The notes under the pieces: model-generated
What the model was told of the DNA's origin: nothing
The model's database searches: none
The model's input: the letters and a program-made list of their open reading frames with translations, nothing else
Shown: in pieces, positions 10,311 to 59,592 of the stretch
Position numbering within the stretch: position 1 is the stretch's first letter
Layout of the letters: every line of letters starts with the position of its first letter
Source: an uncultured Coriobacteriaceae bacterium
GTDB lineage: Bacteria; Actinomycetota; Coriobacteriia; Coriobacteriales; Coriobacteriaceae
Assembly: GCA_944321435.1 (NCBI GenBank)
Contig: CALULH010000001.1
Span: 124,001-188,000, forward strand
DNA length: 64,000 bases
Reading direction: 5' to 3'
Made by a program: the position numbers and the translations under genes

Positions 10311-11501
10311 ATGGCTAAGAACAACGACGCGCGGCGCATGAGGGGCGGGATGCGGCCGGTTGCAAGCGGCGAGTCACGTGGCGAAAGCGCCCCGCACGCC
10401 GGCAGCAGCGCCTCGCGCCCGGGCGGGGGCGTGCATCGCCGCTCCGCCTCCCGTCCACGCGGCGGCCGCGTACTCACGGCCGCCCTTATCGCAGCGCTTC
10501 TCATTTTGGCGGGGCTTTTCGCCCTGCGCTACGCGCCGTCGGCGCTGACGCAAGGGCGCAAGGTCGCGCAGGTGGTGGCATTCATGCCGTGGCTGACCAT
10601 CCCCGCCGTGGCGCTTCTCGCCCTGTGCGCGGCCACCAAGCGGCGTGTGCTCGCGGTGCTGTTCGTTCTGTGCGTGGCCGCCGAGGTGGTGTGGCACGCG
10701 GGCTACTTCCTGCCGGCGACGAACCTGTCCGCGGCCTCTCAGCGCTCGGCGGTGGCCGAGCGTACCGCCTCGGATGACACCTTGCGCGTGATGACGCTCA
10801 ACTGCATGAACGGCGAGGCGGACGCCGCCTCTATCGTGCGCGCGGTGCAAAGCGAGCGCGTGGAGGTTCTCGCCCTGCAGGAGGTCTCCAACGGGCTGCT
10901 CGATCGCTTGAACCAGGCGGGCATAGCCGATCTGCTGCCACACCGGCTGGTGGGCAAGGCCGGCTGGCGCGACAACGGCGGCGTGAACTGCCTCTTTTCG
11001 CTCGCCCCGCTTGAGGACGTCTCCACCAGCTCGCTGCCCGACGAGGCGGGCGCGTCGGCCACGCCGGCCGCCACGGTCGAGCTCGGCAGCGGCATCAAGG
11101 TGCGCTTTCTGTCCGTGCATCCCAGCTCGCCCAAAACCGGCACGCGCGGCCTGTGGAACACCTCGCTTTCGAGCCTGGGGCAGAGCCTGCGCGCGGACGT
11201 TGACTACGTGCTCATGGGCGACTTCAACGCCACGTGGGATCACCTGCGCTTCAGGCGGCTGCTGCAGAACGGCGGGCTGGTGGACGCCTCCGAGCAGGCG
11301 GGCGAGGGCTTCCACATGACCTACCCTTCGAGCCCCGAGCTTTCGCTGCGCTACTCGCCGGTGCCGGTGCCGTTCCCGCTGATGGAGATCGACCACATCC
11401 TGTACGCGCGCGAGGGCTCGGTGGCGGTGGCCTCGCTCAAGACGCTGCAGGTTGCGGGGACCGACCACATGGCGCTGCTTGGCACGCTTGCCGCGCGGTG
11501 A
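10311..11501 (+). CDS. Membrane-anchored endonuclease/exonuclease/phosphatase family protein
   Basis: A 396-residue protein with a basic cytoplasmic N-terminus, three predicted membrane helices (about residues 53-75, 88-105 and 110-130) and a C-terminal domain of the EEP superfamily, placed outside the membrane by the odd helix count. The EEP motifs are in order: TLNCMNGEAD, LALQEV, HPSSP, MGDFNATWDH, EIDHIL and GTDHMALL, which supply the metal-binding Asn/Glu/Asp/His set. Substrates in this superfamily range from DNA to phospholipids and inositol phosphates, so the exact role is unknown. GGAGGTGGAGC precedes the ATG at 10311. Confidence 0.85.
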   Translation: MAKNNDARRMRGGMRPVASGESRGESAPHAGSSASRPGGGVHRRSASRPRGGRVLTAALIAALLILAGLFALRYAPSALTQGRKVAQVVAFMPWLTIPAVALLALCAATKRRVLAVLFVLCVAAEVVWHAGYFLPATNLSAASQRSAVAERTASDDTLRVMTLNCMNGEADAASIVRAVQSERVEVLALQEVSNGLLDRLNQAGIADLLPHRLVGKAGWRDNGGVNCLFSLAPLEDVSTSSLPDEAGASATPAATVELGSGIKVRFLSVHPSSPKTGTRGLWNTSLSSLGQSLRADVDYVLMGDFNATWDHLRFRRLLQNGGLVDASEQAGEGFHMTYPSSPELSLRYSPVPVPFPLMEIDHILYAREGSVAVASLKTLQVAGTDHMALLGTLAAR

Positions 11502-11533
11502 GGTGCAGCAGACATGTTGGCCTGCCATTGGGT

Positions 11534-11602
11534 GCCATTGGGGACGGGTACGAATGGCAAGGGATGCGGCGCGTTCTGCCATTCGTACCCGTCCCCAATG
11601 GC
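11534..11602. repeat. Long palindromic repeat, copy A of a dispersed family
   Basis: Perfect 26-base arms at 11534-11559 and 11577-11602 flank a 17-base spacer. The outer 19 bases of each arm (GCCATTGGGGACGGGTACG) recur in the palindrome at 58434-58497, while the inner parts differ. It lies between the EEP gene and the ParB-like gene. There is no T-run, so it resembles a REP-type element more than a terminator. Confidence 0.9.
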
Positions 11603-11726
11603 AAATAGCAAGTGCGCGCTTCCAGCGATATGTGGAGAACGCAGTGGTGGCGCGCGGCGGGCGCCTGCGGCTTTCGCGCTGTTCGTTTACACTGGGGTCA
11701 GAGAGACGCGAGTGAGCGGAGGGGCC

Positions 11727-12695
11727 ATGACAAGGGCGGACGGCGCAGGCGCTCGGAACGCAGGCGGAGCTGCCGAGTCGGAGGCGGCTGTTGCGACAAC
11801 CGGCGCGGATGCCGTGCTGGGCGAGCTTTCGTACTCGTTTGCGCGCCTGCCGCTCGACGAGATCGGCGCGCATCCCGAGAACGACTACTCCATGAACGAA
11901 GGCGAGCTTGTCGAGCTCATGGCCTCCATTGAGAAGGACGGCCTGGGGCAGCTGCCTTTGGTGCGTCGCCTGCCGGACGGGACGTACCAGATGATCGCGG
12001 GGCACCGACGACTGGAGTGCTTCCGACGGCTCGCCGCCGCGCATCCCGGCGCTGACGGCAAGCCCGGTCCCTACGACCTGCTGCCGGTGAACGTCATCGA
12101 CGGCCTGGATGATGCCCGCGCCTCCATTCTGCTCAACGTCACCAACCTGGTCACCCGCAACCTCACGCAGGAGGAGCGCGGCGCCCGCTACCGCGCCATA
12201 GGGAGGCGCGTGCCGGCCATGCGCGCCGCCGACCCGTCCTTGCGCGGCGTGCGCACCAACGAGGTGATTGCCCGCATCGTGACTAAGGAGACGGGCAACC
12301 CGGTCTCCGAGGCCACGGTCAAACGCGCCATCGCTGCCGAGAGGCGCCTGGCCGAGGCGCGCGAGAAGGCAACGCGGCTGCGGAGCGACCTCACGGACAA
12401 CTGGCAGGTAGAGGCCAGTACGGGCAAGATCGACCCGGTGACGCTCAAGTCCATATCCGAGCTGCCGGAGGACCGGCAGGAGGAGCTTTTCGTGTCCTAT
12501 CAGCGCCAGGGGTTGGCCCCCGGCGCGCTGCGGGCGCATATCCGCCGGCTGGAGCCCAAGACCGCGGAGGACGCGCGCCGCGAGCTTACGGCGGCCATTC
12601 GCAACGTGGAGGACGTGGTCGAGATGGCCCGGCGCAACGTGGAGGTGCCCGCCGAGTTGGTGCAGCGCCTGAGAAGCCTGATCGACCAGCTGTAA
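11727..12695 (+). CDS. ParB-like nuclease-fold domain protein (orphan)
   Basis: A 322-residue protein with a ParB/Spo0J-type N-terminal domain: FARLPLDEIGAHPENDYSM, a helix, then MIAGHRRLECFRRLA with the AGHRR box at 91-95 that binds CTP in ParB proteins. NLTQEERGARYRA follows, then a helix-turn-helix region (SEATVKRAIAAERRL). It ends in a predicted helical tail. There is no parA gene nearby and no parS-like site was recognised, so it may be a Noc-like or other nucleoid-associated ParB relative, not the main segregation protein. The ATG at 11727 follows GGAGGGG. A TACACT box at 11690-11695 is a possible -10. The function is inferred from the fold only. Confidence 0.7.
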   Translation: MTRADGAGARNAGGAAESEAAVATTGADAVLGELSYSFARLPLDEIGAHPENDYSMNEGELVELMASIEKDGLGQLPLVRRLPDGTYQMIAGHRRLECFRRLAAAHPGADGKPGPYDLLPVNVIDGLDDARASILLNVTNLVTRNLTQEERGARYRAIGRRVPAMRAADPSLRGVRTNEVIARIVTKETGNPVSEATVKRAIAAERRLAEAREKATRLRSDLTDNWQVEASTGKIDPVTLKSISELPEDRQEELFVSYQRQGLAPGALRAHIRRLEPKTAEDARRELTAAIRNVEDVVEMARRNVEVPAELVQRLRSLIDQL

Positions 12696-56465: not shown

Positions 56466-56563
56466 CGGCCATGCGCGTAAGAGAAGAGAAAAAGCCATGT
56501 AGAGCCTGTGTTTCTCACGGTCTGCACAGACGCAGCCCCCTCGCGCCCGCGCGGCGCATACGC

Positions 56564-56577
56564 TATGATAGCTGCCA
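56564..56577 (+). promoter_or_regulatory. Likely -10 box of a leaderless lepA transcript
   Basis: TATGAT at 56564-56569 lies seven bases before the ATG at 56577, with no ribosome site in between, so transcription would start at or next to the start codon. Confidence 0.4.
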
Positions 56578-58385
56578 TGACTACTATAGATACCTCACAT
56601 ATCAGGAACTTCTCCATCATCGCGCACATCGATCACGGCAAGTCGACGATCTCGGACCGCATCCTCGAGCTCACGCACACCGTGGACGAGCGCGACATGG
56701 AGGCCCAGCTGCTCGATTCCATGGACATCGAGCGGGAGCGCGGCATCACCATCAAGAGCAACGCCGTGCGCGTCATGTACACCGCCGACGACGGCGAGAC
56801 CTACCAGTTCAACCTTATCGACACGCCCGGCCACGTCGACTTCACCTACGAGGTCAGCCGCAGCCTGGCGGCGTGCGAGGGGGCGGTGCTGGTGGTCGAC
56901 GCCACCCAGGGCGTCGAGGCCCAGACCGTTTCCAACGCCAACCTGGCCATGAACGCCAACCTGGACATCGTGCCGGCCATCAACAAGATCGACCTTCCCT
57001 CCGCGCATCCCGACGAGGTCAAGACCGAGATCGAGGACGAGCTGGCCATCCCGGCCGACGACGCCGTGTGCGTGTCGGGCAAGACGGGCGAGGGCATCCA
57101 CGACCTTCTCGAGGCCATCGTGTTCCTCGTCTCTCCGCCCTCTGGTAGCGAGGACGCGCCGCTCAAAGCCCTTATCCTCGATTCCTACTTCGATGAGTAC
57201 CGCGGCGTCGTCGCCATGGTGCGCGTCTTCGACGGGAGCATCCGCAAGGGCGACCAGCTCACCATGATGCAGTCCGGCGAGAGCTTCCTCGTGGACGGCG
57301 TGGGCGTCAAGCGCCCGGCCGAGGTCCTTATCGACCGCATCGGGGTGGGCGAGGTCGGCTTCGTGGTGACGGGCCTTAAGGATCCCGGCGCCGTGCGCGT
57401 GGGAGACACGCTCACGTACCGCGACCGCCCGTGCCCGGAGCCCCTGCCCGGCTACCGCGAGGCCAAGCCCATGGTCTACACGGGGCTGTTCCCCATCGAC
57501 AACAAGGATTACGAGAACCTGCGCGACGCGCTCGAGAAGCTCCGCGTGAACGACCCTTCGCTTACCTGGAGCCCTGAGACGAGCGTTGCGCTGGGCTTCG
57601 GCTTCCGCGTGGGCTTCCTGGGCCTTCTGCACATGGAGGTCGTCAAGGAGCGCTTGGAGCGCGAGTTCAACCTGGACCTCATCGCCACGAGCCCCAGCGT
57701 GGACTACCACGTCTACAAGACCGATGGCCAGATGATCGACGTCCGCAGCCCCCAGGACCTGCCCGACGCCACGCGCATCGAGCATATCGAGGAGCCCTAC
57801 CTCAAGGCCAAGGTCATCGTCCCACCCGCCTACATGGGCGCGGTGATGCAGCTCGCGGTCGACCACCGCGGCATCACCAAGGACATGGTTTACCTGTCGG
57901 AGAAGTCCGTCGAGATGCACTTCGACGTTCCGCTCGCCGAGCTCATCCTCGACTTCTTCGACCAGCTCAAGAGCCGCACCAAGGGCTATGCCAGCTTGGA
58001 TTACGAGTTCGCGGACTACCGCGCGAGCGACCTCGTGAAGCTCGACATCCTGCTTTCGGGCGACGAGGTGGACGCGCTCTCCTTCATCGTGCATAAGGAC
58101 AAGGCGTATACCCTCGCGCGCGGTCTCTGCGACAAGCTCAAGGAGATCATCCCGCGCCAGCTCTTCGAGGTGCCCATCCAGGGCGCCATCGGCAACAAGA
58201 TCATCGCGCGCAGCACCGTCAAGGCCCGCCGCAAGGACGTGCTGGCCAAGTGCTACGGCGGCGACATCTCGCGTAAGCGCAAGCTGCTGGAGAAGCAGAA
58301 GGAGGGCAAGAAGCGCATGAAGGCCGTCGGCTCGGTCGAGGTGCCGCAGGAAGCCTTCCTCGCCATTCTGAAGGTGGACGAGTAG
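56577..58385 (+). CDS. lepA: Elongation factor 4 (LepA)
   Basis: LepA/EF4, 602 residues, a ribosomal GTPase that acts in 30S assembly and may back-translocate stalled ribosomes. The G domain shows [14 protein letters not shown], the DTPGHVDF switch, and NKIDLP, followed by the LepA C-terminal domain ([23 protein letters not shown]). Length and motifs are standard. The ATG at 56577 starts [21 protein letters not shown], as in LepA proteins; longer in-frame starts at 56508 and 56565 lack a ribosome site, as does this one. Confidence 0.96.
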
Positions 58386-58433
58386 CCTTCTGCGGCCCCA
58401 AAGCGCTCCGACGCGCTGAGGGTGGGCGCCATT

Positions 58434-58497
58434 GCGCCATTGGGGACGGGTACGTTTGGCAGACATGTCTGCCAAACGTACCCGTCCCCAATGGCGC
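58434..58497. repeat. Perfect 64-bp palindrome, copy B of the dispersed family
   Basis: Arms of 32 bases meet without a spacer; the centre is AGACATGTCT. The outer core GCCATTGGGGACGGGTACG is shared with 11534-11602. It lies between lepA and dusB and has no T-run. It may form a cruciform in DNA or a very stable RNA hairpin. Confidence 0.93.
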
Positions 58498-58575
58498 AAC
58501 CCCATGGCGAGAAGGGCAGTGCGGCGCCGCTTTCTCGCCCGCTCTTTGCGCGCTTGCAAGCAGTAAGGAGACCCC

Positions 58576-59592
58576 ATGACCCCATCCGACACGCTGCGCG
58601 CCCTGTTTGCTGAGCAGCCCTTCCTGTTGGCGCCCATGGCGGGGGTGACCGACGCCCCCTACCGCCTCATGTGCCGTGCCCACGGCGCGCGCCTGGCGTA
58701 CAGCGAGATGGTGAGCGTTGCGGGCCTTGCCTACGCGAGCGAGAAGACATGGGACCTCGTGCTGCCGGATCCGCGGGAGCCGCAGATCTGCGTACAGCTC
58801 TTCGGATCCAAGCCTGAGCAGTTCGCCCAGGCGGTCGACGCTGTTCAGGAGCGCGTGGGCGAGAAGCTCACGCTCATAGACATCAACATGGCCTGCCCTG
58901 CGCGCAAGGTCGTCTCGAAGGGGGAGGGCTGCGCGCTCATGCGCGCGCCGGAGACGGCCGAGCAGATCGTGCGCGCGGCGGCGGGGCGCGCTCGGGTGCC
59001 CGTGACGGTCAAGATGCGCGTGGGCTACGCCTCCGCCGACCGGAACGCCCCGGAGTTCGCGCGGCGCATGGAGGCCGCCGGCGCCGCCGCGGTGGCGGTT
59101 CACGGGCGCACGGCCGGGCAGATGTACCTGGGACAGGCCGACTGGTCCATCATCGACGAGGTCGCCGCGCAGGTTGCGGTGCCCGTCATCGGCTCGGGAG
59201 ACGTCTACACGGCCCAGGACGCCGTCGACATGCTTACCGGCACTGCGGCGAGCGCGGTGTTCTGTGCGCGGGGGACCTACGGCAACCCGTGGATCTTCGA
59301 GGACGCGCAGGCCCTGCTCGCCGGGGACGTTGCGCCCGCTCATGATTTCCGCGACAAGCTGGGCGCGTTCCGCCGTCACCTCGAGCTTTTGGAGGAGGCA
59401 GGCGCGCACATGGTGCGGGCGCGGACCTTTGCCGCCTGGTACTTGAAGGGCGTTCCGCAAGCGGCTTCCTGGCGCCGCCGCGCCGTGTCGTGCGTCTCGG
59501 TCGCGGACTGGCGCGCGCTTGTCGATGACCTGCAGGCGGCCTCGTCCCATTGGACGGTCGAGAACGGCAAGGTCGTGGCGCAGGATGCCTGA
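58576..59592 (+). CDS. dusB: tRNA-dihydrouridine synthase, DusB type
   Basis: A 338-residue flavin-dependent enzyme that reduces uridine to dihydrouridine in tRNA. The TIM-barrel core has LAPMAGVTDAPYR, the catalytic Cys107 in DINMACPARKVV, and the FMN-binding IGSGDVYTAQDA and GARGTYGNPW-like ARGTYGNPWIF. The ATG at 58576 follows AAGGAG. The hemW start codon overlaps its last codons. A GatB-like tail is absent. Confidence 0.93.
   Translation: MTPSDTLRALFAEQPFLLAPMAGVTDAPYRLMCRAHGARLAYSEMVSVAGLAYASEKTWDLVLPDPREPQICVQLFGSKPEQFAQAVDAVQERVGEKLTLIDINMACPARKVVSKGEGCALMRAPETAEQIVRAAAGRARVPVTVKMRVGYASADRNAPEFARRMEAAGAAAVAVHGRTAGQMYLGQADWSIIDEVAAQVAVPVIGSGDVYTAQDAVDMLTGTAASAVFCARGTYGNPWIFEDAQALLAGDVAPAHDFRDKLGAFRRHLELLEEAGAHMVRARTFAAWYLKGVPQAASWRRRAVSCVSVADWRALVDDLQAASSHWTVENGKVVAQDA

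Follow-up and report, generated by a model that had tools for sequence, protein, structure and literature searches.

Two palindromes between co-oriented genes

The analysed stretch, referred to here as the window, comprises 64,000 nucleotides (contig 1, 124001-188000) of the 2.3 Mb draft genome of an uncultured Coriobacteriaceae bacterium (G000). Two palindromic elements lie within it, both between co-oriented genes. Element 1 (11533-11603) follows an ORF at 10311-11501 (+), the product of which we take, from reading the protein, to be endonuclease/exonuclease/phosphatase-like. It precedes an ORF at 11727-12695 (+) with a presumably ParB-like product. A longer ORF from 11514 that crosses element 1 is an over-extended start. 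Element 2 (58432-58499) is flanked by ORFs at 56508-58385 (+) and 58576-59592 (+), which we take to be lepA (EF4) and a tRNA-dihydrouridine synthase-type (dus-type) gene, respectively. No Rfam family was matched in the window.

The 19-mer GCCATTGGGGACGGGTACG was found by exact search at four positions in the window, arranged as two inverted pairs (11534-11552/11584-11602 and 58436-58454/58477-58495). Allowing up to three mismatches gave no further match in the window, with 0.04 expected by chance. This agrees with the original prediction, made from the sequence of the window alone, that both palindromes share a 19-base outer core. The left REP arm of element 1 (11533-11559, +) reads TGCCATT-GGGGACGGGTACG-AATGGCA, giving a 7-bp stem and a 13-nt loop. 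Its right arm (11577-11603, -) is the perfect inverse, and the two are separated by a spacer without strand assignment (11560-11576). Element 2, likewise without strand, is perfectly palindromic over 68 bp and consists of two inverted REP arms that abut directly. A 17-base spacer in one of the two palindromes had been predicted and was found as such; the predicted arms are present, but are slightly longer than the 26 bp proposed (27 bp each in element 1, with the 68-bp palindrome in element 2). Folding as single-stranded DNA gave -37 kcal/mol for element 1 (z ~ -10) and -44 kcal/mol for element 2 (z ~ -15).

Alignment with a second genome of the genus (G090) also pointed to what looks like a truncated further REP arm, GCCATTGGG, immediately upstream of element 1 (11524-11532, +). 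At the corresponding position, G090 retains more of it (GCCATGGGGGACGGGTACG).

The element family and its transposase gene

The pattern GGGGACGGGT-N18..44-ACCCGTCCCC was matched by 24 inverted pairs in the G000 genome, both window palindromes included, versus none for the reversed control pattern. The dispersed REPIN-like family proposed from two copies in the window is thus represented by 24 copies genome-wide, whereas a genome holding those two alone would have spoken against it. Of the proposal that the element is mobile or amplified, amplification is supported by this copy number; mobility we infer.

All copies follow the consensus GCCA-NN-GGGGACGGGT-RC-NNN-TGGC with small variations; between copies, the sequence varies at NN, R and NNN as well as in the centre. 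Within a copy, however, the two arms are identical in all 24 cases, compared with a mean of 3.3 and a maximum of 11 when right arms were dealt at random. The 24 copies are all apparently intergenic and lie mostly between co-oriented genes. A simple ORF caller placed eight of them within reading frames, in most cases close to a 5' end that had been over-extended (for example, window 11514). Short GCCATTG(GG) repeats were also observed directly outside about half of the 24 elements, in their upstream flanks, as at window 11524-11532. These look like leftovers of further REP arms, since a longer version is present at element 1 in G090.

As predicted, the window itself holds no REP-associated transposase. 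Exactly one Y1_Tnp gene is present in the G000 genome (G000:C1:68196-68936). It lies in the gpmI-secG gap (G000:C1 67765-69112), 55 kb upstream of where the window begins, and is flanked by the same repeat. GGGGACGGGTACA was found in two copies on each side of the gene, on the + strand upstream and on the - strand downstream. Correspondingly, two direct copies of TGCCATTGGGGACGGGTACATTTG lie upstream and two inverted copies downstream, all facing inward. In the 247-aa protein the HUH pair reads NHVH and is accompanied by Y---NP, the signature known from TnpA-REP proteins; the HUH residues and the Y---NP motif were invariant among 18 relatives. Its best NCBIfam match was NF047646 REP_Tyr_transpos (E 7e-18), with a score of 64.9 bits that lies below the cut-off of 80. 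The predicted structure (mean pLDDT 88) gave 4ER8, a TnpA-REP bound to a REP hairpin, as best PDB match. Its C-terminal part is helical in the predicted model. HTH_23 and HTH_7 were matched in 9/18 and 8/18 of the relatives, respectively, with no significant match in the G000 protein itself. Assignment of the gene as a RAYT is well supported by the HUH/Y---NP residues, the REP_Tyr_transpos match and the 4ER8 fold match.

A conserved loop tag and its association with RAYT genes

The flanks of 66 RAYT genes from the order were subjected to an unguided ranking of all 6-mers. GGGACA, AAAGGG, GGACAG and GGGGAC came out on top, facing inward, and no GTAG word was among the 25 most enriched. Inward GGGGAC hairpins flank about half of these 66 genes. 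We then took the GGGGAC nearest each gene, without selection for pairing, and scored the Watson-Crick fraction over six positions. Pairing in Coriobacteriales peaked solely at a 13-nt loop (GGGGAC plus 7), reaching 0.67 against 0.22-0.40 for other loop sizes and a maximum of 0.43 when 3' halves were exchanged between loci. Since 36 Coriobacteriales loci show 28 different 6-nt stems, pairing has been maintained through sequence change. Outside the Coriobacteria, mostly in Bacillota, the GGGGAC motif was present at 17/22 RAYT loci, and the peak was likewise at 13 nt (0.70, with shuffles not exceeding 0.54). At distances of over 700 bp from a RAYT, GGGGAC sites gave a weaker 13-nt-loop signal (0.39), probably from other REP copies.

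A conserved tag therefore sits inside the hairpin in both Coriobacteriales and Bacillota, where it opens a loop of constant length (13 nt) borne by species-specific stems. In Bacillus-like and clostridial genomes, the flanks of RAYT genes (L270-L302) were seen to carry a nearly invariant loop, GGGGACGGTTCTC, on differing stems. GTAG or GTGG is absent from the 5' foot of the G000 hairpin, where GGGGAC is found in the loop instead. The predicted REP/REPIN likeness accordingly holds for the REPIN-like arrangement (24 pairs and a flanked RAYT), but not for a GTAG-type REP, as GGGGAC starts the 13-nt loop.

Association between repeat and transposase was surveyed in 150 genomes of the order, 77 with a RAYT-type gene and 73 without, with IS200-only genomes separated by hand. 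Excess was defined as the number of GGGGAC-N20..50-GTCCCC palindromes minus that of the reversed control. An excess of at least 15 was reached by 29/77 genomes with a RAYT and 0/73 without (Fisher p = 2e-10, uncorrected for shared ancestry, for which reason comparison within the genus is the cleaner test). RAYT presence does not bring amplification automatically, as some RAYT-bearing genomes lack a palindrome excess. Little excess was seen in 28/77. A modest excess was seen in seven genomes without a RAYT.

Four genomes of the genus were compared, one per species. In G000, RAYT-A occupies the gpmI-secG slot, and the genome contains 24 type-A elements. The same slot in G090 is occupied by RAYT-B, 49% identical to RAYT-A, and this genome has 18 type-A elements and 12 type-B tags. 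The type-B REP, GGGGACGTGYTCC, also flanks the G090 RAYT-B and is absent from G000. In G150 and G151, secG and gpmI lie ~120 bp apart, the RAYT is absent, and no elements of either repeat type were found. The link of elements to a RAYT in the gpmI-secG slot is thus exact within the genus, and on these genome sequences the presence or absence of elements between species follows the RAYT. The type-A elements of G090 are older. Mismatched arms were found in 6/18 of them, in a genome without RAYT-A, compared to 0/24 in G000 (p = 0.004).

The orthologous gaps of the two window elements behaved differently. No element is present in the lepA-dus gap of G090, G150 or G151, element 2 being confined to G000 among the four. 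These element-free gaps come from diverged species, and their alignment yielded neither a precise empty site, boundary or target site nor a directly visible insertion event. At the orthologous G090 site, element 1 and its spacer are preserved without change, though the flanks have changed.

A RAYT was present in the gpmI-secG slot at 16 non-redundant loci examined, from several genera. Loci of this kind are G000:C1, L127, L136, L137, L140, L150, L156, L157, L183 and L223-L235; the gap is a fixed RAYT home not just in Coriobacteriaceae but in at least one family besides. Identity among the RAYTs in the slot is 36-90%, whereas gpmI is mostly at least 90% identical within Coriobacteriaceae. A chance swap was initially considered for RAYT-B in G090. 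However, RAYTs occupy this slot in many loci, and its presence is better accounted for by replacement at a fixed slot or by old divergence and differential loss. For the 14 gpmI-secG loci with REPs, RAYT identity predicted REP similarity (Mantel r = 0.79, p = 5e-5), whereas gpmI identity, within the family, did not (r = 0.03). RAYT and repeat are thus coupled, by joint movement or joint evolution, and this coupling owes little to the neighbouring gpmI. One further genome (G088, contigs 10-21) has two RAYTs and two palindrome families, GGGGACGCACCTTTTGTCTCAT and GGGGACGTTTCCCTTTTGTCA, with like GGGGAC ends and different interiors. Each family can be assigned to one RAYT (L177, L176) by its match to the flanks of that gene.

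Interpretation and relation to known systems

The sole Y1 transposase of G000 is flanked by inverted copies of the family repeat, which argues for a system of the REPIN-RAYT type. We consider the elements to be REPIN-like and non-autonomous, each formed by two inverted loop-tagged REP hairpins and dependent on a single RAYT (probability about 0.85). That a family of ~24 elements depends on a single REP-type transposase gene is very probable.

In such a system the RAYT would recognise the REP hairpin once it forms in single-stranded DNA, the lagging strand being the likeliest place. TGCCATTGGGGACGGGTACGAATGGCA is the candidate single-stranded hairpin target of the G000 enzyme, and specificity would be read from the tag in the loop instead of from a tetranucleotide at the hairpin foot. 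The hairpin would be nicked through the HUH/tyrosine site, and the paired unit then copied or moved. Since arms agree within copies although copies differ, fold-back (hairpin-templated) synthesis or repair, acting during or after copying, would best account for arm homogenisation. The family as a whole is probably persistent rather than host-functional, while single copies may have been co-opted.

It is possible, if unlikely, that the RAYT has been domesticated at its slot and that the elements are immobile relics which no longer spread. A gpmI-secG slot common to several genera would be expected for a domesticated, vertically kept gene, and the genus comparison does not demonstrate a recent insertion. 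Against this, arms are identical in every G000 copy but mismatched in one third of the type-A copies of G090, which lacks RAYT-A, and element 2 is missing from three relatives. Retention of intergenic hairpins for a host function, as bidirectional terminators or mRNA-stabilising 3' hairpins, with the likeness to the RAYT flanks being secondary, is improbable. Such a function would suit the intergenic position of the copies, mostly between co-oriented genes, and the preservation of element 1 in G090 despite altered flanks. However, T-runs at a distance of up to 12 nt from the stem were missing from both strands of all copies (0/24), and terminator prediction at element 2 gave none. Intrinsic terminators were rejected on these grounds, and a terminator function is unlikely because T-runs are lacking. 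Moreover, both relatives without a RAYT have no elements, and the repeat type changes with the transposase rather than with the host. An origin of the elements as MITEs from another (DDE-type) transposon, with the RAYT merely inserted beside one or carrying one, is highly improbable: MITEs, too, typically carry long perfect inverted repeats, but inward GGGGAC hairpins flank about half of the 66 RAYTs of the order and 17/22 RAYTs of other phyla, and REP type co-varies with RAYT sequence.

The REPIN-RAYT reading can be compared with the systems of Pseudomonas and E. coli, which use GTAG REPs (PMC3116915, PMC8266576). Common to both are paired inverted REP hairpins that are dispersed and intergenic, and one cognate, repeat-flanked HUH/Y1 transposase matched to its REP. 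The G000 system differs in having GGGGAC in a fixed 13-nt loop and no GTAG/GTGG foot, in its low copy number (24) and in the C-terminal extension of its transposase. Lacking that foot, the repeat falls outside the GTAG REPs; in its apparent mode of operation, the system resembles REPIN-RAYT.

Another close relative may be found in TIRYT genes, which have inverted repeats sharing GGGGWSAS, some in moderately abundant dimer families (PMC3733652). That paper (Di Nocera 2013) describes GTAG and CGTC REPs and TIRYTs separately. A 2018 survey assigns most TIRYTs to TnpA-Y1 subclass 2.1, for which it found no REP-like structures by automatic or manual searches (PMC6006769). TIRYT/TIRtrons are probably equivalent to TnpA-Y1 subclass 2.1, or RAYT group 1. 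As in G000, they combine a Y1 transposase with an extended C-terminus and inverted-repeat flanks with a GGGG-A/T-C/G motif. GGGGWSAS agrees with the G000 motif GGGGACGG at 7/8 positions, and GGGACA and GGACAG, among the most enriched words across the order, can be set beside it. Coriobacteria were not found in a term search of either PMC3733652 or PMC6006769. The GGGG motif at TIRYT genes is published, with the flanks described there as terminal inverted repeats; the repeats here differ in being fixed 13-nt-loop hairpins amplified as REPIN-like pairs. The loop-tagged hairpins thus extend a known kind of bacterial mobile repeat. Tentatively, and at slightly under even odds, we extend this to a widespread RAYT subclass (probably group 1/subclass 2.1) with its own GGGGAC 13-nt-loop REPs across phyla, amplified as REPINs whose arms are kept identical by fold-back, with RAYT and REP types exchanged together at a fixed slot.

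RAYTs are among the best-known domesticated bacterial transposases, but for one of their largest classes no REP partner had been identified (PMC6006769). Having a loop-tagged family with its matching transposase, a natural RAYT swap within one genus and RAYT-free sisters makes REP-RAYT dependence directly testable, in a system outside Proteobacteria and within a common gut lineage.

IS200/IS605 TnpA enzymes (IS608, ISDra2) share the HUH/Y1 fold and the recognition of subterminal hairpins, with 2VJV and 2XM3 among the fold matches of the G000 protein. Unlike IS200/IS605, no multi-copy autonomous element is present here, and IS200-type genes of the order lack the paired GGGGAC flanks of the G000 RAYT. 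Literature searches returned nothing relevant on the repeat sequence itself, nor did they turn up any account of comparable repeats from Collinsella; a link to a Thiomargarita paper was rejected, as the match was only to a primer. CGTC-tagged REPs resemble the present family as short palindromes occurring mostly as inverted dimers, but have no dedicated transposase and 4-5-nt loops (PMC3733652).

A second dispersed palindrome family, approximately GATAAGAACCCGGTTTTTGCCGTTATCAAAATCCGGAACCTTATC, was also observed, at G000:C1:321923-321974 and in the flank of L198 (query 1216-1288) among other places. Its copies are numerous in G090, and G000 has several. One of its copies ends in GGGGAC...GTCCCC.
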